Positions 3,640 to 63,100 of a stretch of 64,000 nucleotides of DNA are shown here, piece by piece (the first letter of the stretch is position 1; each line of letters begins with the position of its first letter). The notes under the pieces are model-generated. The model had not been told where the DNA came from and searched no databases. It saw only the letters and a program-made list of their open reading frames with translations. Location of the stretch: the NCBI GenBank assembly GCA_017506865.1, contig JAFCMP010000046.1:310001-374000 (forward strand), written 5' to 3'. The translations under genes were made by a program, and so were the position numbers. Source of the DNA: Tribonema minus. Lineage: Eukaryota; Sar; Xanthophyceae; Tribonematales; Tribonemataceae.

Positions 3640-6600
3640 CTACGAGGCGGGCGACGGCGGCGACAGCGCTCCCCCCTCCCCCTCCTTCCCCCATTCGTGC
3701 TCATCCGCGCGCTCCACAAAGTCGCGCGGCAGCGAGATGTCCGTGTCCACCGTGCGCATCCACTCGGCGCTGCGCCGAAACGCGTCCCCCTCCCCCCGCC
3801 CCCCCCCCTCCGCCCCCCTGTCCCCCTCAAAATGGGGGTCTGCTGCCTCGCCGCCGCTTAAACCCCGCCCCCCCCCCTCCTCCTCCTCCTCTTCGGGATC
3901 CGTCAACTCGCCGCTCGCGAGGCGCCGCGCCGCGCCCGCGCTCGCGCTGTAGTCCAGCGACCCCCCCTCGGAGGTCGGCGACAGCGCTCCGCCGCCGTCC
4001 GAGGGCGACAGAGCCGCACCGCCGCCGCCGCCGCTGCCGCCACCGTCGCTGCCGCCGCCGCGCTCAGACGCTTGTGACGGCGCACCCGCAGCAGCAGCAC
4101 GTGCTGGCGGTGACAGCGCGCCGCGCGCAGCGTGGGCAGCATGGCGATTGTCGTCATCGTCGTCTTCGTCATCGTCGCTGTCGAACAGGGAGGACGCGCC
4201 GCCGTCGCTGGCGTCGCGCTCAAAGGCGGCGGCCGCGGCGGCGGCAGCAGCCATGTCGCCGGCGTCACGCAAATTGGGCGCGCGGGAGTGGTGAGGCTGC
4301 TGCTCTGGTGCTGCTGCTGCTGCTGTTACTGATAGCTGAGCAGTGCTGCGGTCGCCGCCGGCGAGGACCGCAGCGAGGCGCTCCTCCACCGCCGCGTGCA
4401 CCGCCAGCGTCTGCGCGCAAGAGTCCGTGAAGTCGGCATTCAGAGCATGCCGGCAGTGCTGGCATTGACAGGACTAGATTGGGAACCCTTTGTGTCAAAC
4501 TGAGACGACATCTGCAAACTGTACACAACACGCTTGCGTGGAGTGCAGCCCAGCCCAATTATTGCTGTCCTACAGAGTGACACTGTGCTGCAGCGCCCCC
4601 TGTCCTTGACATCACACTCAGCATGTTGTCTCGTATACAGCACCCTCACATTATTGCACGACCCACTGAGCATTCCTCATGCGTGATCGAGCGGATTGAC
4701 CTGCAGCACAATGGCCACTGGTCGCGCCGGGCAGCGGGCTGAAATAGCGCGCCGCAGCCCCTCCACATCCTCATTGCTCAATGCCTCATTTCACAAACAT
4801 AGCTGTAGACGACGTGGCACACAGCATCCACATGCATTTCTTCCAACTGGACGAACGTACATACATACTGGAGTGGACCCACCTGCAGCCCATTGGCTGT
4901 CCGTTGCGCCGCGCAGTACGGAGGCAGTGACGGAGCGCCGCAGCCCCTCCACACCCTCATTGATCAATGCCTCAATCAAAGGGAACCACTTCAAGGGCCA
5001 TCGCATGTGCCACCTCGTGTCATGTCGCATCGCACATCACATACCAAGCGCACGAGCACAATGAAACCTCGCGCTGCGTAACGCACCTGCAGTCCGACAG
5101 CTGCCGGCCGCGCGGCGCGGTACGCAGCAACGGTGCGCCGCAGCCCCTCCACGTCTTCGCCTGCGTCTGCGCCCGCCGCGGCGCCCGCCAACGTGCGCCT
5201 CGCGCCCTCCGCAACGGCCAGCGCGGCCGGCTCCGATAGCGCCTGCGCATGCGATTGAGCCATGCCGCGGCAGTGTCAAGTCGGTGTTTTTTGAACAGAA
5301 AACGATGCTTGATTTGACTGTGCGACGGCGACTGTGTAAGCATATGGTTGAGCGATGCAGCGGGAGTGTCGAGGTGACACAAGTTATCTGTTGCCTGCGG
5401 TACCGGCTGTGAGAGGTGAGCAATGCTGACGCAAATGGTGAAATGCTTGCTGTCGGCGATTTAATGTGTGGGAGTTCACAACAGCTTGAAGCGGCAAACC
5501 GCTTGCACACACCACTCACGCATCGTCTGCTGCATGGCGAGGACGTTCTCACCAGCATACCTACACATACACACAACAAGTAGGCGTCCGCTGGCAGCTG
5601 CGACAGAGCCGCGCAGCGGAGCTCTTTTCACATGACTTCAGAATACATGAAATCATCACGTGAACGAGTAGCAGTCTCTCACCCCACGCCCACATTATCA
5701 TTCAAACAGTGATAATCAACTGGCAGTCACTGACCGCGTTTGCCGCAATCGTGCCGCGCGCCGCCGCGCTGGCGCGCCGCCTCAACATCAGCATACATAT
5801 GGTCATGGGTTAAACAAGTAGCATTCTCTCACAGCACCCACATTGAACACAAACAGTGATCAACTGGCAGTCACTAACCGCATCCGCCGCAATCGAGCCG
5901 CGTGCCAGCGCCGCCTCAAGGATACACATGGTCATGAAGTCAACATGTAGCAGTCTCTCACCACGCCCTACATTGTCATCATACAGTGACCGAACGGCAA
6001 TCCCTCACCGCATCTGCCCCGATTGAGCCGCGTGCCGCCGCGCTGGGGCGCCGCCGCGGCGGCGACAGCGACCGCTCCAGGCGCGCCAGCGAGGCCTGCG
6101 CGGCGGGCGACGCGAGCACTGCTGCACGCGGCACTGCCCTCTCGTAGTAGTCCACGAGGTCGTCGACCTGTGTGTCGCTGATGAGCGCGCCGGAGAGGAT
6201 CTGCTCGGCGGCGACGAGTCGAGTTGACGAGTTGAGTCGGCAGGTAAAGTCGGGCGACAGGGTCATGGCGCGCGTGTGCGTGCAAGCGACGATCGTGAAG
6301 CGCCGCTGCAGTGCCGCCGCCTGTGCGGCCTTGTAATAAGCATACATACTGTATCAGAGCACCATGGCTGTAAGCGCACGAGACCTTGCAAGCGTTGGCA
6401 GTTCGCTTGCCTACGCGATTCAAGACGCGCCAGGCGCATGCATGCGCACGAGACGCAGTGGTGGCACAGCCTGTCGCACGAAACGCGATGTGTGTATACT
6501 TCTGAAGTGACACTTATGTGCCACCCTGCAGTTCCAGAGATGGCAAGCACACAGGCGACAGGCGACAACAGCCCGAGGGCGCATGCGTCTGCCGACACAC

Positions 6601-9600
6601 CTGAAGCTCAAGCGCCTGCGCCTCGTAGTGCCGCCGCACCGCGCGCAGCGGCGTCTCCGGCGGCAGCGGCGCCCCCGTCCCCTCCCCCTCCCCCTCATCC
6701 CCCCCCCCCTTGATGCTAAGCACCACGCGCCCCTCCTCCACGTCGAGCGCCGCCGCGAGCGCCGCGCATGCGTCGCCGACCGTCTCCATCTCTGGCCCCA
6801 CGCGCACCGCCACGCGCCGCGGCTCCGCAAACACGAGCTCCCACGAGCGGCCGCCCCTGTCCGCGGAGCGCTGCGGCCTGCGCGCCGCCGTAGCAGCAGC
6901 ACTCGCCGGCATGCCAGGCGGCTGCGCGCCGCCGCCGCCGCCGCTGCCGCTGCCGCGCAGCGCAGCGAGGTCGGCGTGCAGCTGAGCGTTGTCGCGCGCG
7001 TACCCCTCCATGCGCGCCGCGAGCTCAGACAGCCGGTCCTGGACGCCAGCGGCGGCGGTGCGCGAAGCGGCGGCGGCGGCCGCGGCGCCTTCGGCGGCAG
7101 GATCCGCGTCGTCCTCCAGGGCGCCGGCGTTGGAGGGGGGCGGGGGGCGCGCCGCTGAGGCCTCCCTGAGCGCTGCCTGGGGATGACAAGAAGTGATGGT
7201 TTTTCAGTACATAAAGCTGATGTAAAAGTTCGGGATTCGTCTGTGGGCGAATAGTGAGCGGGAGGGCAGCACGCAAATTTGTACTTTTATACATGTAACT
7301 CAGCAGTTCAGCTTTACCTGGGACGGTGCTTTTGAACATTGGGGCTCCAGTGGGAACGTGCTGCTCTGCTTTTAAAATACGCAATTCTTCACAAGCTGAG
7401 CGCTTCATGTCAGGCCCTGACTTGCTGTGATCGAGAGTAACAATGTGCAAGCGACCCCATTCTAGATTGCGAGCGGTGCGTTACTTTCCACAAGATGTTC
7501 TGAAGCTTCTTGAATGTGTCCTTGGGGGCGTCATTCTGATGCAGATACCCCTGATATGTTACCTGAAGTTGCATTCAAGGGCCTGGAGCGTCCCTGCATA
7601 CTTGAGGTTTACAATCAACCTATTTACCTACCACCACTGTGCGCCGCACCTGGAGCGTCTCCTTGAGCTCATCAATGCTCCCCTCCACGTAGCCCTCGAT
7701 GCGGCGCGGCAGCCCTAGCTCCAGCTCTCGCAGCTTCGCCTCCAGCCCTTCGGCCACCTCCAATTCCTGTGAAGCATGCGACATTGAGAGTTGCTCAGAC
7801 ACTGTGGTCTATGACGCCGCAATAGGCGGTGCGCGTCAGCGTTCGCAAGGGGTATAGACACCTGATGTCAGCAACATTATGGGTCAAAGCGCACGTCAAA
7901 CGTCAATGTGCGCCGCAGAGGGCCTGCAATGGCTCCAGGCCACATAAGCTACCACGGCAGGTAAGTACACCACGACCCCATTCATCTCTGACGCAGTGCG
8001 CCGCACGCTGCAGCCGATCGTGCCCGTCCTGTCAGGACCGCGGCGCATCGCTCGGCACGGCGCCACTGCCACGCTGCGCTTGCCACTGCATCAGTGCTCA
8101 GCATCATCTTGCGCGCCGCCGCCGCACCTGCGCGCGCCGTGCGTCCTCGCGCTGCATCCCCCACGCCAGCTGCTGCTGCACGAGCCCCACCAGCGCCTTC
8201 ACGTGGTCCCCCTGCCCCCCCCCCCCCTCCCCCCCCTCCCCGCGTGCCCCCGCCGCATCTGCCACCAGCAGCAGCTGGGCGTGCTGCGCCAGCCCGCACT
8301 GCTCGACGGTCGCGCCCTCGCGCAGCGCAGCGCCGCGGTACACGAGCCGCGCTGCCGCCGCCGCCGCCGCGCCGCCGCCGCCGGCAGCAGCAGCGCCGCC
8401 CAGACTGCGCAGCGCGTCGCGCAGCACGTCGGCGACCAGCGCGCCGCGCGCCGCCGCGACCTCCGCGCAGCGCCCGTCCGCCGCCGCCGTCACGTACAGC
8501 AGCAGCGGCTCGCGCGCGCGCTGCTGCGCGAGAGGCGTCGGCGGCGCGTGCTTGCGCGCGACGTGAGCCTGCAAGAACGCGTCGTCCGTGAAGAGCTTGC
8601 CGCACGTGACGCAGGCGTGGCGGTGCTGGGGGCGACGCTCCTCCTGCGCGCCGTGCGGCGCGGCGGCGGCGCGCGGCGCGGGCGCCACCGCCAGCAGCTG
8701 CTCGTACTTGCCTATCGTGCGCCGCTTGTGCGAGACCTCCTTCTTGAGGCGCTTGACGTCTGCGGACGCGCGGCGCAGCTCTCCGCGGCCCGCTTCAACT
8801 TCCCTGCGCGCACGGCGACAGGTGTCCGTGCCGTTGAGACACTGTGAGGCGCTTGTGCAGTGGTTGGCGTTGTGCGATGAACCGTGAATGTCCGTTGGCA
8901 TTGTGCGATGAACCGTGAATGTCCGTAGGTGCGCGATTTTGACAAGGCCACATGATGCTGGTGTGCATTGCATCGGTGTGCGCAATTCTTAACGCAGGCC
9001 GCAATGTACTTGTTTCTGTGGTTTGACGGCTCTGAGCTTGCAAAGGACTCCACCGAGCGCACAGGATGCAAGGGCGGCCCGAGTCAACCAAACTTCAACT
9101 GGGTGTCAGCATCCCAGCAGCGCCCTGCGGCAGCAGCGCGCTGCAGCAGCAACGCGCAAGCAGCAGCGAGCAACCAGTCATCACCTGCGCAGCGTCTCGT
9201 GCTTGCGTGCCAGGGCCTCGAGGCTCGTGGCCAGCGTGTCCTGGACGTTGAGCAGGTACTCTATGATGAGCTGCGCCAGCTGGAAGAGCTTGAGGAAGCA
9301 GTCATCCGTGTACAGCCGCAGATCGTCCGCCTCCAGACTGCTGAAGGTTATGTTCTCCAGATGTGCCTGGCGGTGGCAGCAGTGGCATTGAGGCGGAGGC
9401 GTGTGGGTTTGTAACAGCACGTGAGCAAGGCATCGGTGTTGGCGACAGATGGTGACAAATCCAATGAAGTTGAGGGATCTGCAATGTTTGCACGGAAATT
9501 CATCCAGGCGGCAGTGTAAGCATGTGGCCAGCGCGGCCAAATAGTTGCATGTTAACAAGCAGCACGTGCATCCGAAAGCACTAGATCAAGTGCTGCAACA

Positions 9601-9831
9601 CTCCCGATCTGATGATCCACTTACTTGAAGTACGTCGATGTCGACATCTTGCACCAGCCTGTCGATGTTGACCCTGGAGATGGCTCTGAGATTGAGCTTG
9701 CCGCACCTTTCCTGGAAGTAAAACGATTTCCGCTGCAGCACACCATCAGCTACAGGCGCTCTCGTGCCGCCAGCTTTGGCTGTTGGAGGTGGGCCCACGA
9801 ATTTGGACACCAGCCGCACCGCATCTGCCAT
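3640..9831 (-). CDS. DZIP1: DZIP1/Iguana-like ciliary zinc-finger protein, 8 exons
   Basis: Exons (minus strand): 9831-9625, 9366-9185, 8803-8128, 7766-7650, 7176-6601, 6320-6009, 5242-5087, 4410-3640. All phases join and give about 998 residues. The N-terminus has the DZIP1 signature: SFYFQERCGKLNLRAISRVN, then an IDRL-to-VLQ segment, then LKLFQLAQLIIEYLLNVQD. A coiled coil follows (VKRLKKEVSHKRRTIGKYEQ), then one C2H2 finger at about residues 194-215 (C-x2-C-x12-H-x4-H, HACVTCGKLF). In animals DZIP1 acts at the ciliary base and transition zone and in Hedgehog signalling; here basal-body function is inferred. Two ubiquitin-like stretches (about 225-305 and 504-585) and a long acidic, Ser/Ala/Gly-rich tail are unlike animal DZIP1. 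The exon ends at 6009 and 5087 are each copied twice in the next intron. Confidence 0.85.
4690..5160 (-). repeat. Triple tandem copy of DZIP1 exon-7 end plus donor
   Basis: The exon-7 3' end (VEGLRRTV... to CTGCAG at 5087, donor GTGCGT) is repeated twice downstream in the transcript. These copies also end in CTGCAG|GT, at about 4883 (GTGGGT) and 4703 (GTCAAT). Spacing is about 190 bp. The shared core GTGGAGGGGCTGCGGCG occurs near 5145, 4955 and 4765. Confidence 0.8.
5660..6060 (-). repeat. Triple tandem copy of DZIP1 exon-6 end plus donor
   Basis: The exon-6 end (RGSIGADA, donor at 6008) recurs with donors near 5878 (GTTAGT) and 5733 (GTCAGT). The core GCGGCTCGATTGCGGC-like sequence is followed by conserved intronic sequence containing CAGTCACTxACCGC on the plus strand. 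The spacings are about 131 and 145 bp. Confidence 0.8.
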
Positions 9832-12057: not shown

Positions 12058-15000
12058 TCATCGTTTCCGGCTCTTCCCCTTGCTGTTGCTGTTGCCGCTC
12101 ACTGTCTCCCACCCGTCTAGCGCGCTCATGGCGCCGGACACCTTCTTTGCAGGTGCCGCAGCGGGCTTCACCTTGGCGGCCTTGGCCTTGAGCGCTGCGA
12201 TGCGAGATTGGAACTCCTGCAAGTAGCAAGGCGGTTGGCCAACTTTCAACACATCAACCTCAACAGGCTTGAAGGCTGATGCTTTACTTCAGTGCTTTGC
12301 ATCCCATGCATGAAGGTGGCTGTGATCAAACGCTTTTGAAAAGGTGGCTGTACCCTGTGTTGGTGGATACGTGCGATAGTCAGCCTCTTGGACACTGAAC
12401 AGTCCAGTGTAGTTCACGGTGGAGTGCAGGCCGCGCACAGTGCGCAGCACGACACCCCGCAGAAGCGGTCACACATCAGCACTCCTGCAGACCACCACAC
12501 GGGCTTCAGCAGGAACATCGCGCATCGACATACGCCTCACTCCACTTCACCACCGTCAGCTCATAAAAGACTAGATTCTACCATCACGCTACAAAAATAC
12601 TTCTGCCATCACGACAAGCGCCCTCTTCAGGTGCAGAGACGCGATTACTACGAAAAACAGTCCCTACAACACTCTTTCAACGACAGTTCTCTTTGATCAG
12701 TGGGGTTCATGTAGACGGCCAGCAGGGTGACATGGACTAGTAACTCTCGGTAAAATGCTCCCCAAATGAGCGACGACTGAGCACTGACACACCCACCTCC
12801 TCGTCCTCAAACCACCCCCTGCACGCCGCCTCCAGCTCGTCCAGCGCCTCCTGCACCTCCCCCTTCTCCCCCACCGTCTTCACCTCCGCCATCGTCAGCA
12901 GCCGCCCCTTCACCGCCTCGAGCCGCTCCGCAGCAGCGAGCCGCACGAACAGCGCCTGCATCTCCGCTGCGTGCCGCAGCGGGTGCGCGATGGGCTGCGC
13001 GGCGGCGACGGCGCGCCGCCGCGCCGACAGCGCCTCGCGCTGCTTCTGCACCTGCTTGGCGCACGCAGCTCGCGCAGCAGGGAGGCAGCGCTTGACGTGT
13101 CAGAGCAGGTGAAACGTGTGAAAAGGTGGCGGGCGGAGCGCGGCACGATGGTTTTGTGCCTACTTGACACAGTGAGGGATGTATGAGACAGCAGCGATGC
13201 CCAGAATGGTGGAGCGGCAGAAGCGCAGTGCGCGCAGCAGCAAATGCAGCGGCCACGTCGCGGCGCGGCACGCTGTGTGCTTTCGCGCCTGATTGACACA
13301 ACGGGGTGGGGCATTGATTGGCACAAACTGGCAATGATTGGAACGTCATGGAATGGGCTGCGCAGCGAACATGGCCCCTGTGCACCAGCTCAGCGCACGA
13401 GACATAGGCAGCAGCCACGCCGCTCCGCGTACCGCAGCAAGAAGCGCGAGTCTTCCCACCATTGCGTGCACGACAACATCTCGCGGACGGCAGTGCTCAA
13501 TCTACGAAGGCTGAACTTCAACAACAGATGGATGCTACGCGCAATGTTGCTTCAATGCTCTTTTCTAATGCTAGCAGTCGCAACGGACCTTTGGCGGTAT
13601 CGGCGCCGCTGGCGGCGGCTCCGCGTCCCCGCCGTCATCGCCCTCCGCTTCTCGCTTGCCGCCCGGAAGGGCGGCGAGCTTGGCGTCAATCTGCGCGAGC
13701 ACCTGCGTCTTTTCGCGCGCCGTGAGCTGGCCCTCGTCCGCCATGCGCTTGAGCGCTGCTGTGAGCCACGTGACCTTTTCCGCGAGCAGGTCCGCACTGG
13801 TGGAGTCGTAGAGGACCTGCTCCTCCGGCGACAGCGCCTGCGATGAGAACGACGCAGGGCCGGTAGCGGGGATGTTGGTGTGGTGTGTTGTGTGATAAGT
13901 ATGGGGGCAAGCGCATATCGATGGCGGTGCGTGTATGTAGCTCTGCAGCTACCCCCCTTTGCTTGACCACCGCTGTGAGGTCCATGTTTAAAATGTCTGT
14001 CAGTAGGGCTAGTGACATGGGATTCTGAACCAGACTTGCTAGTGTGGAGGCAACAGCAGCTGCGACCAGCACCACAGCCGCAATGCACTGCACGCAAGAT
14101 GACACGTGGGCATTCATAGCAATACCACTATCACTAAATGTCACGGCCACAGCATAACTGCAGGTGCTTCATCAGCAACAGCCGACGAATCTGGTCTATA
14201 ATGACGGCATTGCTCCACTCACGTGCGATGTTGACCCCAGCGCGCCAATCATGCAAGCTGACACATCGGTGACATCGCAAGGCAGTTGGAGGGACACCGC
14301 CTCAGCTGATGACGCTAGCTACTCCGCGACGTTGTCCAATGCGCATGCGATCACCTCCATGCATATCATTTTCGCCTCTGCCGCCTCAAACCGTGTAGAG
14401 CTGCTGTTGAGTCCAGCGAACGTCACGCATGCGTGAGCAACATTTTCGCCTCTGCCATCTCAGACTGGCAAGGTCTACAGGCGAGTCCAACTACACCATC
14501 CAATGCGCATGCGCTCACCTCCATGCGTATCATTTTCGCCTCTGCCGCCTCAAACCAGGTAAAGCTACATACGTGTGCAATATTGTCGCCCCTGCCATCT
14601 CTGACCGGGAATGTCTACAGGTAAATCTGTCCAACTCCATCATTCATTGCGCATGCGCTCACCTCCATGCGTATCATTTTTGCCTCTGCCACCTCAAACC
14701 GCTCCGCCATATCCTGCAGCGCTCGGCACAGCCGCTTGCGCTGCCCCCACGACTGCGTCTTCACCGCCACCATCTCCTTGAATGTGTCAAATTCGCACGA
14801 CGCGCATAGCAGCTCAATGGAGTGGCCCGCCGTCACCCCCCCATGTCCTCCGTTCCCCTCGCCTTCTTGACCCTGCTGGGCGCGAAACAAAGATGCATGT
14901 GCGACGGCAACAGTCAGCTGCCTTGCAGCATTTATAGCAAGGCAACACAGGGGGGTACACTGCTCACTCCTCGTTGACGTAAGTCGCAGAGTTGCATCTG

Positions 15001-15733
15001 TGACTGGACGGCGCTGAGTGTTTGCAGACATGCCACGTACAGCATTGTGATGCGTGAGTCAGCCGGGCGTCGCCCAAAGCCTATGACAGCCTGCGTCTGA
15101 ACAAACGTGAACACCGCGCTGCTCAGCACATATTTCTTGCGCACTTGCCTCGTTGCCGCTCTTCAGGTCAACGTGCGGGAACACGTGCATGAACTTGAGG
15201 TTCTTGCTCGTGTCGTGCTGCGACTTGAACGTGCCCATGCACTCCTTGCACGCACTGGCAGCTCGGTCCTCCTCGAAACCCAGCTCCCGCAGCGCCGTGG
15301 TCATGTACTTGCTGAGGTCCGGGTGGTACTTCTGACGGTCCCCCTTGCCCGCGCCCACCACAAACGTCAGTTTGATGGGCCTGCACGGCAGTGGAGCACA
15401 TGCTGGCAGGTCAGGATCAGATGCCAGTATTTGTAAGAACAGCACCGGAGTAAATCAAAGCTGACGGTATGTTCGAGCAGCACAGAGGTTCGTTGTGCGT
15501 CGAGGATTTACAGCCAGCCTTGTCAGGCTGGCTGCAACGTCGCGGCCTTGAAACTACAACCTCGCATGACGAGCGGTACACATACTGCAACACGTACGCA
15601 AGCTGGGGCAAGCACCGGGTCCGCTGATGACTCACTCTGCACCCTCCATCGGCTTGGTGAAGTGATCCATGACGTAGGTCCGGACCTGCGCTTCATCATA
15701 TCCACCGAGGTCGATGATCTCTAGGTTGGACAT
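12058..15733 (-). CDS. Conserved-looking eukaryotic protein of unknown function, 6 exons
   Basis: Exons (minus): 15733-15636, 15380-15149, 14872-14663, 13837-13589, 13051-12797, 12216-12058; 400 residues, all phases join. The start MSNLEIIDLGGYDEAQVRTY leads into PIKLTFVVGAGKGDRQKY and a dense basic/acidic block with HVFPHVDL, which reads like a conserved domain. Two C-x2-C pairs (about C77/C80 and C133/C136) could bind a metal. Residues 150-348 are charged and helical (probable coiled coil), and the tail is Lys/Arg-rich (KGKSRKR). I do not recognise a named family. Exon 2 ends in a GC donor (GAG|GCAAGT). The start lies 401 bp from the oligopeptidase B start on the other strand. The exon-3 end is copied twice in the following intron. 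Confidence 0.75.
14338..14710 (-). repeat. Triple tandem copy of exon-3 end plus donor (unknown gene)
   Basis: The exon end (AEAKMIRMEG-like, ATGGAG|GTGAGCGCATGCGC, donor at 14662) recurs with donors near 14515 and 14354. All three copies keep the GAG|GTGA or equivalent junction and the GCGCATGCG motif beyond it. The spacings are about 148 and 160 bp. A second motif (CTGCCATCTCTGACCGGGAA-like) lies between copies. Confidence 0.85.
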
Positions 15734-38307: not shown

Positions 38308-38340
<33 letters not shown>

Positions 38341-41271: not shown

Positions 41272-41431
41272 GTGATTTCTTCGAACTTCAAGTGTGCGAA
41301 CTTCAATTTGAAGTTGAACATGGGTTTTTCCGACAAACGACTGTTGTCTTCAAAAATGATTGAACTCGGCAGGCAAGAAAAAATACAAGCAGCTGTCAAG
41401 ATTTGATTGTGACACGAAACTTGTGTATATA

Positions 41432-41948
41432 TCAAAATGTGTCAGAGAGCCCCCTCAACCCGGGAGCGGGGGGCTCGTACCCAAACCTCCCCTTCTCATC
41501 GGCCTGGTACGTGGAACCATAAACCTCATTCTTAAATGGCTGACGGTCATCCGGCCTCCCCCCGCCCCCCCTTCGGAACCGCCCCCGCCGCCGGCGCAGC
41601 GCGCCCCCCTCACCGCCCCCCTCCCCGCGATCCAACGGCCCCATTTCATCGTCGAGCTCAAAATCGTCGGCGCTTATCAGCGCCTCAGCCTCCTCTTCAA
41701 TGTCATACGGCTCATCGTCATCAGCGCCTTCGCTACCATCGCGACCTGTAACATCATCACCGTCCTGCGTCGCGGCGCGGCGCGCGCGCTTTCCGCGTCG
41801 CCCCGGCGGCGGCGGCGGCGACTCCAGGCCGGCGTACACGGCATCTCGCAGCGTTTTCACGGCGACTACTTCCATGTCTGCGGGCAGCTGCGCGCCCGGC
41901 AGCGCGGCGCCCTTGTTTGGCTGTCCCGCAGTTGTGGACCTGTCGATT
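41432..41948 (-). CDS. Terminal exon of an unidentified gene (partial)
   Basis: An open frame on the minus strand ends at a stop at 41432. It probably begins at an acceptor (CGACAG|G) near 41948. It encodes GAQLPADMEVVAVKTLRDAV, a proline run, a basic patch (GRRGKRARR), an acidic block (DDDEPYDIEEEAEALISADD) and a C-terminal FKNEVYGSTYQADEKGRFGY segment that looks conserved. Codon-like composition and charge clustering favour real coding sequence over its antisense frames. I do not recognise the family. Upstream exons are not identified; the gene would have to start before the RadA stop at 42911 or within this exon. Confidence 0.45.
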
Positions 41949-45049: not shown

Positions 45050-45086
<37 letters not shown>

Positions 45087-46244: not shown

Positions 46245-46291
<47 letters not shown>

Positions 46292-52200: not shown

Positions 52201-52814
52201 CTGTCACGACGGCGATCAGCCCATGCCCGCTGGGGTGTGCTGGCCATGCAAGCTAGCTCCATGCCCCACTCAGCATCCTATCAAGGAGCTGACAATAGGA
52301 TGAGAGTCTTGTCAGCTGTGCACTTCAGAAACAAGCTAATGAAATCACCCAAATCATCGGGCCGAATGTGTGAATAGGTGCGGTAAGCTCACCTCGCACA
52401 CATAAACCGTGGCGTGTGTCTTGCTGCCGCTGCCCAATGCCTTCCTGGTGCTCGGTGCGCTACGGCTCTGCAGCCCATAGCTGATGAATCGCGGGCGAGT
52501 GCCGGGGGGTGGCCTCGGCATGGGCTCATCATCATCGAAGTCTTCCTCATTGTCGCCATCTGCGCTGGACCGTAGCCGGGACGATCTGGCAGGCCACAGC
52601 CGCAGATGTCGACATTTTGGGCTCTGACCAGCCGGCGCGAACCCCACAGCGCCCTGAAAGACCGACATTGGGACACAATGGATCCATTAAAGATCTGTTG
52701 AAGATGACACCACACAGGGTGAAAGGGAAGTTCGCTCTTTACCTGCAAGAAGATGGCCAAGTTAGCAGCCAACAGCAGCAGAGCTGCGGCTGCTGCGCCT
52801 GACGCTGCTCTCAT
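42911..52814 (-). CDS. radA: RadA/Sms DNA-repair ATPase, probably plastid-targeted, 12 exons
   Basis: Exons (minus): 52814-52743, 52653-52393, 51721-51298, 50562-50381, 49721-49569, 48352-48233, 47021-46956, 46500-46297, 45379-45218, 44528-44427, 43650-43547, 43067-42911; 668 residues, all phases join. RadA remodels recombination intermediates (branch migration) and is bacterial-type, kept in plastid lineages. Visible: a C4 zinc motif (YVCEVCG...CPTC, about residues 110-127), Walker [11 protein letters not shown] (~224-231), VYVSGEEST, Walker [24 protein letters not shown], the RadA-specific KNRFG across exons 7/8, and a Lon-like C-terminal region ([33 protein letters not shown]). Exon 1 is a signal peptide ([13 protein letters not shown]) and exon 2 opens GAVGFAPAG, resembling the ASAFAP import motif. 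Exon 8 uses a GC donor. The last exon is the least certain. Confidence 0.9.
43278..43592 (-). repeat. Three tandem copies of RadA exon-11 end plus donor
   Basis: TTCAAGCGCGTCGTCGTGCC ([13 protein letters not shown]) through GCAGCAG|GTGCGT at 43546 recurs with GTGCG donors near 43410 and 43280 on the minus strand. The spacings are about 137 and 133 bp. The coding frame is readable in the second copy ([15 protein letters not shown]) and changed in the third. Confidence 0.85.
43736..43787 (-). mobile_element. Diverged LINE 3'-end fragment
   Basis: The sequence TTAGGGCGCAAAGAAGCCCA plus GATGG, preceded by TTTATTTCATTCTTGC, aligns to the LINE 3' end at 2662-2710 (CTCAGGGCGCGAAAAAGCCC plus AGATG) with several differences. 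ATGTTC flanks it at 43730-43735 and 43788-43793, a possible 6-bp duplication that could be chance. It lies in RadA intron 10. Confidence 0.5.
45040..45090. repeat. (CAG)n microsatellite
   Basis: About ten CAG units lie in RadA intron 9. Confidence 0.9.
45355..45990 (-). repeat. Four tandem copies of acceptor plus RadA exon-9 start
   Basis: On the minus strand, TGCAG|GCGCTGGTGACGCCGT (ALVTPSRM) begins at 45379 (the real exon) and recurs at 45629, 45783 and 45934. Units of 151-154 bp also carry GGTCACCTT and a variable poly-C run (poly-G on plus, for example 45812-45828). One further unit near 45490 has lost the core, giving the 250-bp gap. Confidence 0.9.
46248..46292. repeat. (AGC)n microsatellite beside a splice donor
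   Basis: About 14 units start within a few bases of the GC donor of RadA exon 8. If the donor is skipped, the frame would read through as a poly-Ala run. Confidence 0.85.
47308..47345. repeat. CCCTAA telomere-like tract
   Basis: Four to five units (CTAACCCTAGCCCTAACCCT and on) lie inside RadA intron 6. Confidence 0.85.
48478..49440 (-). repeat. Intronic tandem array, ~130-bp unit, about four copies
   Basis: Units near 48480-48602, 49010-49146, 49150-49284 and 49385-49440 share GCGCGCAGTGCGACG, CGGGCGCCCTC[TC]GCCCG, TTGATTGTG and ACATACCTACCTACCTGAC. The array is in RadA intron 5, with no obvious exon sequence in the unit. Confidence 0.75.
49731..49743 (-). repeat. Poly-C tract at the RadA exon-5 acceptor
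   Basis: A run of about 12 C (minus strand) lies immediately before TTGCGCAG|TCC at 49721. Confidence 0.8.
51738..52040 (-). repeat. Two ~155-bp tandem units in RadA intron 2
   Basis: Units starting near 51741 and 51896 share GGGCG[TC]G[CT]GTACGGCG, GATTCGCC/GGTTCGCC, GTGCCGGTG and CGCTCTTGTG. They lie next to the exon-3 acceptor. Confidence 0.65.
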
Positions 52815-52867
52815 CGGCCAAAGTGGAGGTTTTGTCCCAATTTGACAACTTCAAGTTGGAAGTACGA
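52815..52867 (-). promoter_or_regulatory. Remaining RadA-proximal upstream sequence
   Basis: Only 45 bp separate the RadA start codon from the LINE's left target duplication (52860-52867). The native upstream region continues beyond the LINE at 53792. Promoter function is inferred from position. Confidence 0.4.
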
Positions 52868-53791
52868 TTCCTCAACGAGCCCATGTACTCCACAACGGCT
52901 TCGTTCGATGGCCTATCCTGGCAGCTGGCCGTCAAACGCGCCATCGGAGTAGAGGAGCAGACGGCAGGCTGCAAGCTGTGCGGGAAGTCGCCGGGCGGCA
53001 CCCTGCATGCACGGCTGTGTCAAGCGCCACGCGTCAAGGCGCACGACACCATTGTCCACAATAGCGTCAAGAGGGCCACGCAGCGCCTCCTGCGGCAATA
53101 CCTCAAAACGGGACTGGTGGACGAGGACTACACGCCGTTTCTGGGGTCCGCCGGGCCGCCGGGGAGTCGCAGGATGGACATCGTGCTGCCTGCCGACGCC
53201 TTCCCGGTGACCGGCTACGACGACCCGACACGCCACCTACCGCTCATGGTGGACGTTACCTGCTTCGAGGCACAGGTGGCGTCGCGGGCGGCGAAGACTG
53301 CAGCAGACCCCGAGCGATGCTGCCGCGACCAAGAGGCCGCCAAGACTACCCACTATTCTGGTCATTATGATCAGAATTGCTACAAACTTGCCACATTGGC
53401 AATAGGGTCATTTGGCAGCATCGGGGAGCAGGGGCGGAAGTTGCTGGAGGCTGTGGCGACGGAGTATGCCAGCAGGATGTCAGTGCCCGGAGGAGCGCGC
53501 CCTAAAGCTCTCAAGGGCATCGCCCTGGCGCGCTTACGCTCGGCACTGTCGGCAGCGCTCCACATGGCGTACTCTGGCCGTGTCATGACACACATGGCAG
53601 AATCCAGGGGAGGGGGGCACATGGAGGAGGACGTAGGGAAGGACCCCGAGATGCCATTTGGCGGCGGCGGCGTTTGAGTGGTTGTCGTTGCGACACTTTC
53701 AGACTGTCATACGACATGTAGATTCCTTACAGCTAGATGGCAATCATCTGGGCTTTTTCGCGCCCTGAGCGAGAATTAATAAAAAGTACGA
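52860..53791 (+). mobile_element. 5'-truncated LINE with CCHC and restriction-like endonuclease domain
   Basis: The element body is 52868-53783, flanked by AAGTACGA at 52860-52867 and 53784-53791. Its frame encodes the C-terminal end of a non-LTR retrotransposon protein: CKLCGKSPGGTLHARLC (C-x2-C-x8-H-x3-C) followed by a PD-(D/E)XK-type nuclease with MDIVLP, LMVDVTCFEA and AAKTTHY. This layout is typical of R2/NeSL-like LINEs. The reverse transcriptase is absent through 5' truncation. The 3' untranslated region (53678-53783) ends AATTAATAAAA and matches the fragment at 2662-2769. The frame upstream to 52823 is host sequence fused by chance. Confidence 0.85.
52868..53677 (+). pseudogene. LINE C-terminal endonuclease ORF fragment
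   Basis: 269 codons are open from the first base of the element to the TGA. It lacks the reverse transcriptase and any start of its own. The nuclease core residues (Asp in MDIV, Asp in VDVT, Lys in KTTHY) are all present, so the fragment is young. Expression is not expected except by read-through. Confidence 0.75.
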
Positions 53792-54152: not shown

Positions 54153-57100
54153 ATGGAGGCCTCGTCAACCACCTTGTTGACTTCCGACTACAGCGATGAC
54201 AGCCTGTGCAGCTCCGAGCAACCGACCACCGCCGCCACCAACAACTACAGGTCGTCCAGCCCCGAGCCGGACCTACCCCTACTGCCTCAGGCGGCGGAGA
54301 CGATTAAGGTGACCGCTCTGCCGCGTGGGGGCATCTATGTTCCCACAGCAGCCGGTCCCTTGCAGATTGGCATACCGCCAGAGACCATCAAGGACAGCAT
54401 GGCGTTGGGGCTGGCGATGCCTCAGTATTTCGTGATGCCGCCGGACTCATTTCATAGGGAGCTGGGGTCGGGGCTGGGGATCAATGTGGCGGAGTTCGAG
54501 TTCCCGGCGTACTACAACTTCTTTTTGAGAAAAAGGTGAGCAGCCGTCATCACGCACGCACGCAGCGGGCCGCGCCTGATCATAGTACATGAGTTGCGGT
54601 GCATCATGTCTGATAAACGTTTACGATGGAAAGCGGGGGTCGCACACACCGGTAGACCGCTCACAAGAAGTTGGCTAGTTGATGCTGCTCAAACGACAAC
54701 AGCGGCCCGATGGCGCCTGACTGGTTTCAATCCACAGCAGGTACAATGCTAACAGAAGTCATTGGGCTGTTCTGATCATGATGCATTACATAATTTCACG
54801 CAGCTGACGCTGCATTACCACCAAAGCTGTGCGCGATGACACGCACACAACTCGGAACACTCAGCCGGACAATTATTGGTGGGTCAGCCTGGCCAGCAGA
54901 GTCTTCTGGAGCTTTTGGCGCCATATGATGTGGGATCTATGCACAGGTCAACATAGTCGCACGCGAGCAACCGTGCCTTTCACTCAATATGGCAGCATGC
55001 TGGCCGAGGCCCATGCAATAAACAGCGACCCCCCTTGCACCCCCCACCTACATAGCACACAGCTTCAGCATGCGAGGTGTCCGTTATGTAGGAGACGGTT
55101 GAACTTGTGGTTGGACGCTGATGAGATATTCAACCTACGGGCACCGTCTGCGGTGTTTTGGCGTTTTCATACGTCTTAGCCATGACCCCCTGGTGGCCAA
55201 TTACACCCTGCGCCCTGCTCCTTGCCTTTAAGCACTCGTCACTCTATCAGCAACGCAGCAGCTGCGTACGCATACGACGCATAGACTCCATCAAACGCTG
55301 CCATGCTCGATGCCGTCTGCACGTGGGGCCGCGTACGGCGGGCAGAGCGCCATGTCACGTTCGCTTTCATTACAGTTACATTGCAATGGAGTTGTGACAG
55401 TAACTTGCAGGGTGCGCGCGCTGCGCACGTTTTGGGGTCAGCGACACGCTGCCAACGCAGTAGTGCAGCACACCGCCGCAGCTGACGCATGGGCAGCGAC
55501 GAAGCTGTGGATTGTAGCTCACCGCCGATGCCGCCCGGCGCTGTAAGCGCAGACAGTTGCGTCGCTCTGAGTCGCTCTTCACCGCCGTTAGCCGCAACCC
55601 ACGGGTCCACACGCACACGCAGCGCACCCTCAGCGATCATGGCTGCACAGGGGGCAACACCTGCGGTGCATGCTGCGCCAGGAGCACGCCCTTTGCCTTG
55701 GTGTGTGCTGGCTGTTGTGGACTGCATACGTCGCTCCGCCTGTGAGCGCGAGACAGCGCTGAGGAGCGGGCGCATAGTGCCGCTGCTGTGTGCGCGGCAC
55801 CGCGGCAGTGCGGGGGGTGGGAGGAGGGGGGGGGAAGGTGGGAGGGGCAGCCGCTGCAGCATGTGGGCGAGAACGGGGATTGTGTAGTGACCACGCGAAT
55901 GCTGGACCAGCAGCTAGTGATGACCAGCAGCTAGTGATGGTCTGTCAGGTGTTTCGCGCGTCAGCTGCCGCCGTCCCGCAGTTCAACCGCGCTGCAATGG
56001 CGCGTTGACGCAGCGTCAGATGTTGCGCCGTGGGGCGGCAGCCGCCCGTGACGACGAACTTGTGTCGTGATCGCAGCGATCAAGCACTGAGCACTGTGCA
56101 ACAGCACCGCTCAGCATATTGTCGGCAGCGACACGCGCGCTGACACGCTTAGACTCAAGACTTGAATGTTCATGGCCCGCCATCTTTGAGCGTCTGGCAA
56201 TGTGTAGATTTACACGCCGCCTTCGCGGCGGACCGTGCTGCTTCGGCAGCGGCATGCTGATGCGAGAGGCTCAGTGGCTGCCCTGTGCGCTTTGTGAGTG
56301 CGCACAGTGAGATGGCAGCGGCAATAGAGGCAGGTGGCAGCGCGCTCCGCAGCACGTCATAGACGTGTGGGGCCAGGTGCGCCCTCAACCATGAGCGCAT
56401 ATTATACACAGTTGACAGTACATGAGTGGCTCGCGTGGACTGCGGTGCGGGACGCTTGCTCGGAGTGCGCGCACGGGCAATCAACTCTCGCGGAGAATCG
56501 CGGCCCGTCTGAGCTCGCTGCAGACGGCGCAGCAGCGCCGGCGCAGCGCAAGCAGCACCGCTGCACGCGCACTGCAACGTCAGGTTGCGCGCGGCTGCCG
56601 CGTCGCGAGTCCCTTCCGCTGGCGAGCGCTGTTTTGCGCGCGCCAGCACGGGATTCCAGCATACCCGTGTGTCAGTTGGAGCACAGAGCAGTTTGTGAAG
56701 CGGGCGGCTGGCGTGTATATGTGCGTGAACATGGCGGCGGCGGCTTCGCATGAGCCCTGGGGGGTGCTGCTTCGATGCTGACCGCACACAATGCATTCAG
56801 CTGGCCACTTGAGGTCTTCAGGGCTAGGTGTACATGATGATCAATATACCATTAGCGCTCGTGTGCACCAATTGAAGAAATGAACGATGAATGATGTGCG
56901 CTTGGAGGCGTCCAATAATTGTCGCTGGGTACAGAAGTGGCAGTGCCAGCGCAGCAGCGCGGGGGTCCGCTCTGCGCGCAACCCCCCCACCCCCCAGACT
57001 TCACATTTGAACTTGACACGCACATTAACGCCACCCACCCACCCCAGCACTCACCGACTTCAAAGCTCCCCCCCCCATCAAACCCTCCCTGTTATAACAA

Positions 57101-60100
57101 CTTGAGCACTCACAAACTTCAATTGTCCTCCCTCCCCTTTTCAGGACGATCAAGCTCGTGGTCGGCTCGCTGGAAACGGAGCGGCGCCTGCGCATTGTCC
57201 TGCAGGAGACGCTGTTCGGGCCCGTGCACATCGACCCGGACGTCGACTTCTCGCAGGCCGTGCCGCGCGCCGCGCGCCCGAACCTCGCCGCCGAGTCCGA
57301 CTACTTCCGCATGTTCGACGGCAAGGTCCTCACGCTCGACTCGCTCGTGCAATTCGTCCACTTCGACGCGGCGGGCGTCGTCACGATCGAGGGCGAAGGT
57401 GAGCGCGCGCGCGCGCGCCGCTGCCGCTGTCGCTGCTGCTGTCGCCGCCGCCGCGGCGCGCTATGTAGAGGGTCGCGAGGGAGCGCTACTGCTGAGCCGC
57501 GGCCGCCATGCGCTGCGTAGAGTGCCGTGAGGGAGCGCTGCTGCTGCGCTGCGCTCGTAACAATTGCCTCTGCGCACTGTGCTGAGCTGCGCCACTATAT
57601 GTGACTGCATCTGGGCCGGGAGCACAAATGGCTGCGGCGGCGGCGGCGGCGGCACGGCGCGGCGCGGGCAGGCGACGACACTAGCTGCGCCAGGGACGAC
57701 CTGAGTCTTTGATCCGCCGTGTGTCGCACGCAGGGCGCTGTTGCTCATGCGGCGCAGCGCGGTCGGTGGGGATATGTGACTGGCGCGTTCTAAGCGTGCG
57801 GGGCGCTGTGCGGGTGTCGCGCAGCTGTGCTGACGCATTCCCCCCCCCTTCCCTCCCAAGGACGTTGGCGCCCACCGCACGCCCGCTGAGCCGTGCTGAC
57901 GCATCTCCCCCCCCCTTCCCCCCCAAGGCCACACACCACCACTCCCCCGCTGAGCTGTGCTGACCCCCCCCCCCCTGATCCCCCCCTCTTTTCCCCCATG
58001 CGAGCGCCGCAGGCGACTACAGCACTCCTGCTGAGCACCCCCCGCTGAGCTGTGCTGACGCCCCCCCCCCCTCCTCGCCCCTCGTACACACGCAGGCGAC
58101 TACCGCGGCGCGCGCATCGAGCTGCGCCACCGCCGCGCCAACGGCGGCGAGTTTGTCGTGGACGAGGTCGACGGCGCCAGCGGGCGGCGCCGCCGCGCCA
58201 TCGTCTCGCAGTTCATAGACCTGCCGGACGTGCTGCCGTTCCACCCGGAGCCCACCAACACGGTGTTCGAGCCGCCGGCGTTCGGCGTGACAGTGCTCGG
58301 CAACAGCCACGGCTTTGACCCGAGCGGCAGCACGTCGGGCTACGTGCTGTGGATCAACCGGCGCGGGTACATGATCGACCCGCCGCCGTACGCGTGCGTC
58401 ATCCTGCGCAACTTCAACATCCGGCCCAGGTGAGGGGGACGACTTGCCACCAGCGCACACGCGTGTTTTTTCTGTGGATTTGCTGTATGCCTGGGTGTGG
58501 GGAGGTGGGGGGCGTGTTTGGGGGGGAGGTAGACAAGCCGTGCGTCATCCTGCGGAACTTCAACATCCGGCCCTGGGGAGAGCCGGGGGGGGGCGGTAGC
58601 ACAAGTGCACGCTCTGTGGCTTGTCTGTGTGTGCCTGAGTGTGTGTTGAGGGGGGATGTTGGCGGGGGAAGGGGGGGGGGGGGGGCAAGCGCGGTGCGTC
58701 ATCATGCGGAACTTCAACATCCGGCCCAGGTGAGGGAGAAGACGTAGCGCCCGCGCACGTGCATGTGCGTGGCTTGTGTCTGTGTGCCCGAGGGTGTGTT
58801 GAGGGGGGGTGTTGGAGGGGGGGGAGGGGACAAGCCGTGTGTCATCCTGCGCAACTTCAACATTCGGCCCAGGTGAGGGGGGGGGCAGGCACCAACGCCA
58901 GCGCACGCGCATGTGTTCTGTCGATTTTGTCTTGTGGACTTTTGTGTCAGCTGATGGCTGGAGCTTGTGAGCAATCCCTGATCCCTGCCACCATTAGTGT
59001 GTCGGTGCCCATCACCCACTGCTTACTCTCCACCTGCTGCCGCATTCGTTCTTGAGTGCCTGTTTTACTAAACTCACGCGCACGCAGTATGGTATTGTAA
59101 GAACCTCACGCCTACTACCTTTTGTTCTCCTTCTCGGCTGAGTCACACTCATGCAGTACTGCACTCCTACCTTTGCCTGCTAGAAGTACCTCTTGTGCTC
59201 CTTGTCACCTCGATTAGATTAGTCGCCTCACCAGCCCCCCCCCCCCCCCCCCGCCCCCCAGCCTGATCGACGGCGTCATCGTGACGCACTGCCATGCGGA
59301 CCACGACGCGGGAACCTTCCAGAAGATTCTATTCGAGGGGCAGGTCACCGTCATCACGACGCGCACCATCTACGGCTCCTTCATCCGCAAGTACGCCGCG
59401 CTGAGCGGCCTGCCGCCGCCGCTGCTGCGCCAGACGCACCGCTTCCTGCCCGTGACGATCGGCGAGACGCTGCGCCTGCGCGGCGCGTCGCTCAACTTCT
59501 TCTACACGCTGCACTCGATTCCGTGCATCGGGCTCGAGGTGCGTGCGCACGCGTGTGCGCTTTGTTGAAGTTGAAGTTGAGTATCTGATTTGGATTGGAG
59601 CGTCGCTCAACTTCTTCTACACGCTGCACTCGATACCGTGCATCGGCTCGAGGTGAGCGCGCGCGCGCGCGCATGGACTTTGCGCTTTTGAGCTGTTCTT
59701 GCGATTGTTGAAGTTGAAGTTTGGCGTTGGCATGACGCGATGTGTCGCTGAACGACTCTCAGACGCTGCACTCGATACCGCGCATCGGGCTCGAGGCGAG
59801 CGCTGCTGCCGCTGCGTGGCGCGCGTGCCGCATCACTCGGCACTTCGCTCGCGTGGCCTGTCTGCCGCTACAATGTTGTGGCAATGGGCATGTGGCACGG
59901 CGTGCCATTCCATTCTCCTGTGGCAGTTACGCACCCGTGCCTAACCCTAACCCTCAGAGCAGCGCCTCCGCTCGCTTCGTTACTGCTCTTGCCTGCCGCG
60001 AAGAGGGGCGTGCATGCCAAGGGGTAGGGTTAGGGTTAGGGTTGGCTCATACTGCCTTGTCTGCATTCGGCCCCGCTTCTTCGCTGTCGCGATTCCCCGC

Positions 60101-63100
60101 ACAAGGCCGCCTGCACGTCAGGGGTAGAGATAGGGTCGGCTCACACTGCCTCTTCTGCATTTGGTTCCGCATAATTGTTAAAAGTAAGGGCTAGGGTAGG
60201 GATAGGTTACGGTTAGCACTACCTTGCACAAAAACCGCGTGCACGCCTTAAAACGCAGCGTACTTGCACATTCACGAGCCCCCTGCCCCCTTTTAACAAT
60301 CACCTCTCCCCTCCGGCTTCACAACTCCCACCCCCATCCCCCCCCCCAGCGCGCTTTACACCCCCCCCCCCCACACACACCACCAGCACCACCAATAACC
60401 CATCCTCCGCCCCCCCCCCCCCCCCCCCTCGCCGGCCGCAGGTCTTCTTTGGCAAGCGCAGCATCGTCTTCTCGGCCGACCACATGAACGACCCCGAGCG
60501 CATCGCGCAGATGGCGCGCGACGGCATCCTCTCGGACGGCCGCCGCGACGCGCTGCTCGCGTTCCCCTGGCACCACGACGCCATCTTCCACGAGGCGGGG
60601 GTACCCCCTATACATACCCCTATACGCACGCTCGCGGAGCTGCCTGAAGATGTGAAGAAGAGGCTGTATGTGGTGCACGTGACGCCGAGCTCGATACCGC
60701 CCGACAGCGGGCTGCGCGTTGCGCCGCTCGGCGTGCAGAACACGGTGGCGATCCGCGTGGAGGCGCCGCCGCAGCAGCACCACATGTGAGTGCTACTAGT
60801 AGTGTGCTGCCAGATGGCGCAGTGGTGGGTAGCTTTGGTGCGGTTGTGGATGGCACGATGTGAGCATCGGTAACAGTGTACTTGTGGATTCCTGAACGCG
60901 GTGGCCATCCGCGTGGTGGCGCCGCCGCAGCAGCACCACATGTGAGTAGCTGTATTATCAGTGTGCTTGTAGATGGCGCGTGTTGTGAGTGGCTTGTGGG
61001 TCCGGGGGGTAGCATCAGTGGTAGTTTACTTGTGGATTCCTGAACACGGTGGCGATTCGCGTGGAGACGCCGCCGCAGCATCACCACATGTGAGTGCTGT
61101 GATCGGAAATGAATCAAAAGATTGTAGAGCTCCAGGTGACAAGGTGTGGTGAGCCGCAAGTCCCTTTCATCAATAACCGTTGTCGCCGCTGCTGCGGTGT
61201 GTGTTTTTGTGTTTTTCACGTGCAAGTAGCGCCAATAACTGTACAGTCTAGTCGTGAACTCTCTGTGCAGGGCCGGCGTAAGCGGAGCGCTGCTGGTCAC
61301 CCATGACTCGTACTCGTGACTTGTGCACGCTGCGAGGTGCTGGCGGCAGTAGACATGATCGGAGCAGCGCTGATCACTCTCTGGTTCATGACTCACACCC
61401 GTGCGCACCTCCCGCTGAGCAGTGCCGGCAGCGCCATGTACTCGCTGGACCTAAGCGAGCGCTGCTGATCACTCATGACTCGTACTCGTGACTTGTGCGC
61501 CCTGAGCAGTGCTGGCAGCGCCGGACATGATCACTCTATGACTCATGACTCATATTCGTGCACGTCTCCTGCCGAGCAGTGCTGGCAGCGCGGTGGACGC
61601 GCTGGACCTGATTGGCAGCGTGGGCATCTTTGGGCACTGCTCCCTCACGCAAGCGCGCGACCTGCTGGAGCTGGGCTCCCGACGGACGTATCCGGCCGGC
61701 AGCATCATACAGGTATGTATACAGGCCTATATGGGGTTGTAGCAGCATCGCAGCAACTGCGGCAAACTTCTGAAGGACGCACCCCTTTTGTGAAGGAAAA
61801 ACTTCAGGGATGCATTTGAATATGGAACCAACCCACTGTTGTTGTCACCGCCAACTGTGGGATGCTGCCATGAATTACTCCTGACGCGATGAACACTCCC
61901 CCCATACCCGCGCTCGTACCGCATCGTCTGAACGGAACATGCACCCTCGTGCGCAGCGTCACCGCTATGCCGCCGCGCCAGCTCACTGTCAGCGCGACGC
62001 CGCTTCCATCGTCATGACATCATCACTGACGCGCCCCATGCCTTCCACGTACGCGCCAATCTCATTCAGGAGGCCGGCGGCGCCGTGACGGACGTGTGCA
62101 TTGTGTCCAACGGGCGCGCGCTGGTGCGCTACAGCGCCATGGCGCGCGGCGTCGCGGCGGCGGCGGCAGCGGCGGCGGCGGGGGCGCAGTCGCCGTCGGG
62201 CTCGGCGTCGCCGCAGTCGCCGCGGCCGTCGGCGACGAAGGACACAGGTGAGCACTGGTTGCAGTGGCGCTGGTAATTGGGGGGAGTGGCGTTGCATCAG
62301 TGCCGCTGACAGTCGGGGGGTGGTGGCGTTGCGCCGTTAACTGTGCTCGCCGCGACTGTCGGCGACGAAGGAGTCAGGTGAGCACGGCGCTGACAGTTGC
62401 GCAGCGGCAAGTGCCAATTTCACAGCGGCGCTGACAGTTGGGGGGGGAGTGGTGCCGCCGCATTGTTAGCTTAGGTTTGACTGTGGTGGCGGCGTCGTGG
62501 CGGCGGCGGCGCCGCAGTCGCCGCGGCCGTCGGCGACGAAGGACACAGGTGAGCGCTGTGGTTGCAGTGGCGCTGACAATGGGGGGGGAGCGGCGTTGCG
62601 TTGGTAGCTTAGTTTTCGTTGTTAGCTTAGTTTGCATGTTGGTGCGCGTCGGCGTGTTGAAGGAGGCAGGTGACGGTACCGGCGACGAAGGAGTCAGGCG
62701 AGCACGGCGCAGCAGTGGCGGTGACGCTGACAGCTGGAGCTGCATCGCAAGCATAGGTTTGTCCGTGACAGTCACAAGCTCTCCCGCGACGAGCGTCGCC
62801 GCATGGCAACTGTAACCGTCGGCATGTCCTTCGGCAACTTTGGTCACCACTTTGGCGCGTGGGTTGTCGCTTTCTGAGGCCACTGCGCTGAGCGCTGTGC
62901 CACAGCGCTCAGCTCTCGTGCGCCCACAGGCTGTGAGCAGTACTGGCGCGACAGCTGCCGTCCGCAGTTCTGGCATGGTGGGACAGACAGCAGCGAAGAT
63001 GTGACGCACCATGGGCAAAAACAGATGCAACCTGCAGCGCGTGTCGGTTACACCGCTCGCTGCGAAAACCGCCACTGCTGGCGCTCCACCCCTTCTGCAT

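Follow-up and report, generated by a model that had tools for sequence, protein, structure and literature searches.

Transposons and random insertion are the usual explanations for how introns become long. Gao and Lynch are reported to have described, in 2009, internal gene duplications in many eukaryotes that include partial exons and introns and that duplicate splice sites. According to two further accounts (PMC3443670, PMC2891723), tandem duplication within genes, and its role in the gain of introns, are already known. Here we analyse a 64-kb stretch of the genome of the xanthophyte Tribonema minus (assembly GCA_017506865.1, contig JAFCMP010000046.1, positions 310,001 to 374,000 of the forward strand), in which the borders of exons are repeated, head to tail, inside the adjoining introns of five neighbouring genes. 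This stretch of 64,000 nucleotides (nt) is referred to below as the window; all positions are counted from its first letter, and all results rest on this single sample.

Six genes, with 60 exons and 54 introns in total (49 GT-AG and five GC-AG), were modelled in the window from spliced alignment to Escherichia coli RadA and oligopeptidase B (OpdB), from comparison with PDB and from reading of the frames. They are a DZIP1-like gene, a gene for an unknown protein (g12), the OpdB gene, a CGL160-like gene, the RadA gene and an MBL-fold/cyclic-nucleotide-binding (MBL-cNBD) gene. Comparison of the window with itself gave 47 local direct pairs (at least 45 bits, spacing 25–600) in 26 clusters, which cover 7,990 bp. 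At this threshold the window held no local inverted pair, and ten 500-bp dinucleotide shuffles gave none. At 34 bits there were 61 direct pairs and no inverted ones, with none in five block shuffles; seven inverted pairs appeared at 30 bits, while at 26 bits the counts were 85 direct, 21 inverted and 1–3 shuffled. Low-complexity and simple-sequence pairs were filtered out before counting, which removed the simple repeats that exist within exons, and two self-complementary palindromes (34650–34888 and 62887–62913) are not included among the inverted pairs. Our blastn searches were blind to spacings below about 50, and because blastn loses pairs near the main diagonal an ungapped scan from spacing 20 was added. 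It yielded 77 pairs, which form 29 arrays, all within gene models or in the DZIP1 intron beyond them; four shuffles yielded no pair.

Of the 61 pairs found at 34 bits, thirty-four join a splice junction to its own intron and 24 join intron to intron, while the remaining three belong to an array at the DZIP1 donor 5087, whose intron lies outside the models. In the whole window no pair at this threshold joined exon to exon, or the interior of an exon to an intron. The repeats are thus arranged head to tail within a gene (61 direct, none inverted), as expected of internal tandem duplication. When exons were masked, the listing at 34 bits contained 27 arrays, of which 18 span a splice junction.

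An earlier interpretation of this DNA from its letters alone (the sequence-only reading) had reported such repeats at no fewer than 14 junctions in five genes, and had described the process as recurrent and local. Our analysis finds junction repeats in exactly those five genes, at local spacing, and raises the count to 18, made up of 17 in modelled introns and the DZIP1 5087 donor. It had proposed comparison with shuffled controls, which produced no copies at either 34 or 45 bits, and had reasoned that equally frequent copies of exon interiors in introns would speak against clustering at junctions; none was present at 34 bits, and the clustering holds. It had put the copied piece of exon at about 15–70 nt, repeated two to four times; the exon part measures 4–66 nt.

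The 18 junction arrays comprise 12 at donors and six at acceptors; a preference for donors was considered and set aside, as the difference is not significant (P = 0.24). Two arrays are in DZIP1, one in g12, seven in OpdB, three in RadA, five in MBL-cNBD and none in the CGL160-like gene; the DZIP1 5087 donor is included in the 18 although it lies outside the 54 modelled introns. Arrays contain 2–4 copies in total. The copied exon stretch has a mean of 39 nt, and is 11 nt or less at three junctions (OpdB 22655, OpdB 26371 and RadA 51721). Successive copies are spaced by a median of 146 bp (quartiles 130–160, n = 37), and 33 of these 37 spacings fall within 105–205 bp, the copy positions having been entered by hand from the alignments.

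In DZIP1 (minus strand), the array of the donor at exon end 5087 occupies 4699–5152, with three copies and an exon part of 66 nt, and that of exon end 6009 occupies 5635–6055, again with three copies. The donor of g12 at exon end 14663 (minus strand) has three copies at 14335–14701. Donor arrays in OpdB (plus strand) lie at exon ends 17747 (17697–18105, three copies), 21910 (21878–22153, three copies), 26558 (26499–27013, one clear copy and two weak ones) and 31356 (31332–31712, three copies). Its acceptor arrays lie at exon starts 21729 (21288–21779, three copies), 22655 (22492–22665, two copies with 11 nt of exon) and 26371 (26127–26374, two copies with only 4 nt of exon); at 21729, the acceptor and the first 51 nt of the exon are repeated at 21552 and 21392. 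RadA (minus strand) has a donor array at exon end 43547 (43255–43593, three copies) and acceptor arrays at exon starts 45379 (45338–46038, four copies and one degenerate) and 51721 (51712–52027, two copies with 10 nt of exon, the copy lacking AG), for the last of which the ungapped scan recovers only the intron part. In MBL-cNBD (plus strand), donor arrays are found at exon ends 58429 (58393–58927, four copies), 59538 (59479–59803, three copies), 60785 (60738–61100, three copies) and 62247 (62203–62725, four copies, the last weak), and an acceptor array of two to three copies at exon start 61589 (61279–61609). The final 37 nt of the exon that ends at 58429 recur, together with the donor, at 58575, 58729 and 58872.

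Under random placement of each array's duplicated unit across the introns and their junctions, 8.0 of the 27 arrays are expected to span a junction, as compared with the 18 observed (P = 6e-5). The ungapped scan gave a similar result, with 17 of 29 arrays at junctions against 7.6 expected (P = 2e-4); this figure consists of 16 arrays marked by the script and DZIP1 5087, whose ungapped match was not marked as reaching the junction, and without the latter the count is 16 of 29 (P = 7e-4). Because copies that contain exon sequence decay slowly, the exon-derived parts of copies were then masked in addition to the exons. Among the 23 arrays left at 34 bits, 13 were junction arrays (P = 0.006); the corresponding figures were 11 of 19 at a threshold of 45 bits (P = 0.009) and 9 of 15 at one of 50 bits (P = 0.014). 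These counts were read off the listing, with one array that adjoins a junction array scored as non-junction. Masking of the exons and then of the copies weakens the excess and leaves some of it, and we therefore reject detection bias as its whole cause.

Purely intronic arrays, of which there are nine by blastn at 34 bits and 12 in the ungapped scan, also lie near junctions. The mean gap to the nearest junction is 89 nt for the nine, which is closer than chance (P = 0.006), and 108 nt for the 12 (P = 0.005; P = 0.008 for the 11 that remain without RadA 51773). When junction and intron-only arrays are taken together, 23 of 27 have an end no more than 66 nt from a junction. The exon part, with its mean of 39 nt and maximum of 66 nt, is shorter than the 71 nt expected of random breakpoints (P = 1e-4). 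The approximately 11.8 kb outside the gene models contain no array, an absence with P = 4e-4 at the density of all arrays in introns and P = 0.07 at that of intron-only arrays. Placement independent of junctions, which we assumed for undirected internal duplication, does not describe these data.

Homologues without introns indicate which of the repeated sites is used. They pass ungapped, in at least one homologue, through 13 of 15 array junctions (11 of 13 introns), where OpdB and RadA were compared with E. coli alone and MBL-cNBD with five of 80 bacterial loci. Since the homologues run through the junctions in this way, the outermost site is very probably the one that is spliced, with the inner copies intronic. 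On the branch leading to the copies, changes at codon positions 1, 2 and 3 number 30, 23 and 34, whereas those on the exon branch number 2, 3 and 16; the exon is under coding constraint and the copies are not. Retention of the reading frame by the copies, to which the sequence-only reading had drawn attention, is consequently not supported as a sign of constraint. Its statement that many copies retain splice dinucleotides is borne out, as 20 of 24 donor copies still have GT (two have GC, one is changed and one is gapped in the alignment) and 9 of the 10 acceptor copies scored still have AG. The site has been lost in some copies, such as the RadA acceptor copy at 51877 and the MBL-cNBD donor copy at 58575.

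Copies diverge from one another by 13.8% (97/702) in their exon-derived parts as compared with 26.9% (214/795) in their intron-derived parts (P = 3e-10), with copies that score below 55 left out of the counts. Low complexity was considered as the cause of the faster decay of intron sequence and rejected, as the twofold difference persists without such sites. Polarised counts, which need two good copies, could be drawn from 14 arrays for decay and from 13 of the 18 for the splice core, MBL-cNBD 61589 being left out.

We propose, with a probability of about 0.5, that existing introns in these genes grow from their ends through recurrent local tandem duplications that have a breakpoint near the splice site. 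A segment mostly of 105–205 bp (median 146 bp) would be duplicated head to tail; one of its breakpoints would usually lie within ~65 nt of the splice junction, often in the exon, and the second roughly 70–170 nt inside the intron. Copies would accumulate on the intron side of the working site, downstream of it at a donor and upstream of it at an acceptor. The outermost site would stay in use, so that each event would merely add its length to the intron; the protein would be unchanged because that site keeps being spliced, and the inner copies would afterwards decay as intron sequence. We infer that the excess at junctions arises because duplications form there more often, and not because they survive there for longer. 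Consistent with growth of this kind, the median length is 832 bp for introns with arrays and 534 bp for those that have none; subtraction of the extra copies lowers the former to 565 bp, and these copies, taken over all arrays, explain nearly the whole of the difference. Extra copies of splice borders amount to about 5.4 kb, of which the DZIP1 intron outside the models contributes 386 bp; modelled intron totals 40.8 kb.

Nucleosome core DNA is 147 bp long. Because the 146-bp unit is close to this length, our guess at a cause is that nicks on opposite strands, in the linkers that flank a nucleosome set by the exon edge, might be followed by fill-in and joining. More tentatively, the process itself may be anchored at junctions: breaks or replication slips near exon edges would copy about one nucleosome length, introns would grow at both ends, and the copies would record the history of that growth. 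We regard this fuller version as possible, though less likely than not.

Several observations count against growth from the ends as we propose it. At the RadA donor 43547 there are 10 extra residues relative to E. coli at the junction, the MBL-cNBD donor 62247 sits in a region that cannot be aligned, and the comparison with homologues covers the 15 arrays of OpdB, RadA and MBL-cNBD out of the 18. At clean sites, that is, without low-complexity and gap-adjacent positions, changes per copy are 7.8% in exon-derived and 16.2% in intron-derived parts, and a plain neutral tandem history does not predict this twofold gap; by our reasoning, a simple tandem history predicts equal decay, or a gap of less than twofold if copies budded from the exon edge over time. 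Possible reasons for the slow decay of the exon part are conversion of the copies by their exon, weak constraint, and more rapid mutation of intron-type sequence. Because exon-derived parts decay more slowly, part of the junction excess could be survivorship. Four arrays with short units (26–52 nt), all intronic, indicate that 146 bp is not the sole unit, and unit size does not differ significantly between junction arrays and the nine intron-only arrays (P = 0.10, short-unit arrays excluded). Selection against copies that take in more of the exon, instead of the placement of breakpoints, could explain why the exon part is short. Finally, there are fewer than 30 arrays from one window; array lists, unit sizes and exon parts were entered by hand in the null models; and the conservative tests with masking reach only P of about 0.01, on counts read off a listing.

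The main rival explanation holds that small tandem duplications arise at random and at a high rate, that those in exons are purged while those in introns or over a single junction persist, and that copies with exon sequence can be recognised for longer; the junction excess would then be a matter of survivorship. We regard this as possible, if on balance improbable. The purely intronic arrays are what it would produce, internal gene duplications with partial exons and introns are said to occur in many eukaryotes, and exon-derived parts that decay half as fast, from an exon copy that is itself under selection, would keep junction arrays detectable for longer. Nevertheless, the excess survives masking of both exons and exon-derived copies, intron-only arrays are themselves nearer to junctions than chance allows, exon parts end at 66 nt, and the sequence outside the models is free of arrays (with the weaker P at intron-only density). 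A different account of the same decay is that the exon, or its complementary DNA, refreshes the exon-derived part by gene conversion, so that old arrays look young at the junction. Divergence rises abruptly across the splice site, also when measured per copy at clean sites, as this account would have it, yet ordinary conversion between DNA copies should carry the adjoining intron too, no direct conversion tract was identified in these arrays, and conversion would sustain arrays and not create them; we consider it doubtful. It is more unlikely still that inner copies have been retained for a function, as decoy or alternative splice sites or as U1 sites that shield long introns. The high retention of GT and AG and the slow decay of exon-derived parts would fit such a role, as would the splice core (−5 to +5), which differs at 7% of positions (26/364) as compared with 12% (139/1162) elsewhere in the exon-derived part (P = 0.009); when positions were shuffled within copies, 0 of 5000 shuffles were as low with intron positions included, and the exon side alone gave P = 0.0096. 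Once changes are polarised, however, the core is not significantly slower (24/336 vs 103/1009, P = 0.11), and selection on inner splice sites was rejected for this reason. In addition, exon-derived parts lack codon constraint, the site is gone from the RadA 51877 and MBL-cNBD 58575 copies, and the other half of the exon is missing from the copies.

Recent gain of introns by tandem duplication of an exonic AGGT, the model of Rogers, is very improbable here. Tandem duplication is an accepted route to intron gain (PMC3443670), and over the 54 introns the neighbourhood of a donor is slightly more similar to that of its own acceptor (mean score 15.8) than to those of mismatched introns (15.0, standard deviation 3.3). 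The best own-intron score is 24, however, and none reaches the 99th percentile of the control (26), and the copies derive from an existing donor or acceptor and not from the interior of an exon. The sequence-only reading had combined this route with a recurrent, local process clustered at junctions: the latter part stands, with five genes and about twice the junction arrays expected, while no clear signature of new introns accompanies it. Three further candidates were rejected. An assembly artefact is unlikely because copies differ by 3–34% (66–97% identical) and each has its own insertions and deletions. Tandem, mutually exclusive exons are at odds with copies that are partial (4–66 nt of exon, with one splice site) and that lack codon constraint. 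Membership of an introner family is at odds with the junction arrays because none of their sequences is common to unrelated introns at 45 bits or more; at that threshold, matches between different genes come from simple repeats, telomere-like repeats, an ankyrin element, two 116-bp copies and a ~97-bp repeat dispersed over several introns.

The intron-only direct repeats in OpdB (plus strand) lie at 20137–20377 (32 nt from the acceptor), 22963–23283 and 28407–28525 (6 nt from the donor, and absent from the ungapped scan). The CGL160-like gene (minus strand) has one at 38486–38713, which is 82 nt from the acceptor and also absent from the ungapped scan. Those of RadA (minus strand) are at 42003–42164 (63 nt from the acceptor), 48499–49285, where there is more than one, and 49418–49547 (21 nt from the donor), and those of MBL-cNBD (plus strand) at 57823–58081 (more than one, 14 nt from the acceptor) and 60026–60170. 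The arrays with short units, found by the ungapped scan and missed by blastn, are at 8863–8929 in DZIP1 (minus strand, 31 nt), 29211–29273 in OpdB (plus strand, 26 nt), 39374–39432 in the CGL160-like gene (minus strand, 28 nt) and 57444–57553 in MBL-cNBD (plus strand, 52 nt).

The DZIP1-like gene (5087–9831, minus strand) was modelled with eight exons and matches the Pfam family Dzip-like_N (E = 3.8e-33); the phase of its exon 7 is unsure, as it does not fit its neighbours, and its 3′ exons lie outside the model. DZIP1 suggests a cilium, and the organism is probably a flagellate. The 401-amino acid product of g12 (12058–15733, minus strand, six exons) matches no Pfam family. OpdB (16135–33579, plus strand) has 20 exons and a complete frame of 751 amino acids, and its stitched exons gave a best match in PDB with E = 1.4e-48; one locus in viral contigs holds a relative of OpdB, which played no part in the analysis. 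The CGL160-like gene (36058–41020, minus strand, six exons modelled) matches CGL160_C in Pfam (E = 3.7e-13), and its introns, of 276–1573 bp, are without a junction array. CGL160 is a chloroplast protein, which marks the organism as photosynthetic. RadA (41432–52814, minus strand, 12 exons, 749 amino acids) has AAA-type domains in Pfam, and its N-terminus consists of a hydrophobic leader followed by GFAP, an arrangement that looks like targeting to a secondary red plastid. The resemblance hints at the lineage of the host, and for this reason Haematococcus, which the TTAGGG-like arrays had first suggested as the source, was dropped. MBL-cNBD (54153–63614, plus strand, eight exons modelled) scores above the Pfam cut-off for cNMP_binding and slightly under it for the Lactamase_B models. 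Among the 80 bacterial relatives listed of 208, which include Planctomycetota, Myxococcales, Spirochaetes and others, identity in the best segment is 44–58%, which is unusually high for an intron-rich nuclear gene.

Other repeats are present in the window. Short telomere-like arrays of the TTAGGG type occur in introns at 20379–20405, 26578–26600, 47309–47342 and 60020–60043 (four per 64 kb). The dispersed repeat of ~97 bp, at 31387–31482, 61096–61192, 40275–40320 and 48437–48483, is found in both orientations and always in introns, and no exact match to its core was found in viral contigs. The 116-bp copies at 2656–2771 and 53674–53789 form an inverted pair that is 99% identical, the second copy lying directly behind an open frame (52766–53674) without a Pfam family; the pair is perhaps the 3′ tail of a retroelement. 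An open frame with ankyrin repeats and its diverged, partly inverted copies lie at 1559–2248, 2896–3151 and 34650–35298, and 34650–34888, in the last of these stretches, is itself an imperfect palindrome.

If the process is indeed tied to junctions, the structure of a gene would be linked to where its DNA duplicates, and arrays such as these would offer a natural experiment on how the spliceosome chooses among successive near-identical sites. The exon-like copies could also mislead gene finders. A search that covered part of the literature turned up no account of intronic arrays of splice borders, which argues only weakly that the pattern is undescribed.

Patch-mediated tandem duplication at double-strand breaks has been reported from work on rice. 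It resembles the present case in that staggered nicks would yield head-to-tail copies, and we know of no tie between it and splice junctions or a 146-bp unit. Our arrays also resemble the internal gene duplications attributed to Gao and Lynch, which are said to be small tandem duplications that duplicate splice sites; they differ in that 18 arrays, mostly of three or four copies with a unit of ~146 bp, lie in five neighbouring genes and end near a junction. Intron gain by Rogers' model (see PMC4974935, PMC2891723 and PMC3443670) likewise involves tandem duplication and splicing at one site among several that are equivalent, but it requires an AGGT within an exon and yields an intron that was not there before, whereas here introns that already exist would lengthen. 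Introners (see PMC9860276) share with these arrays a lineage-specific expansion of intron sequence; they are related elements that are dispersed and insert elsewhere, whereas the copies in the window match only their own junction.

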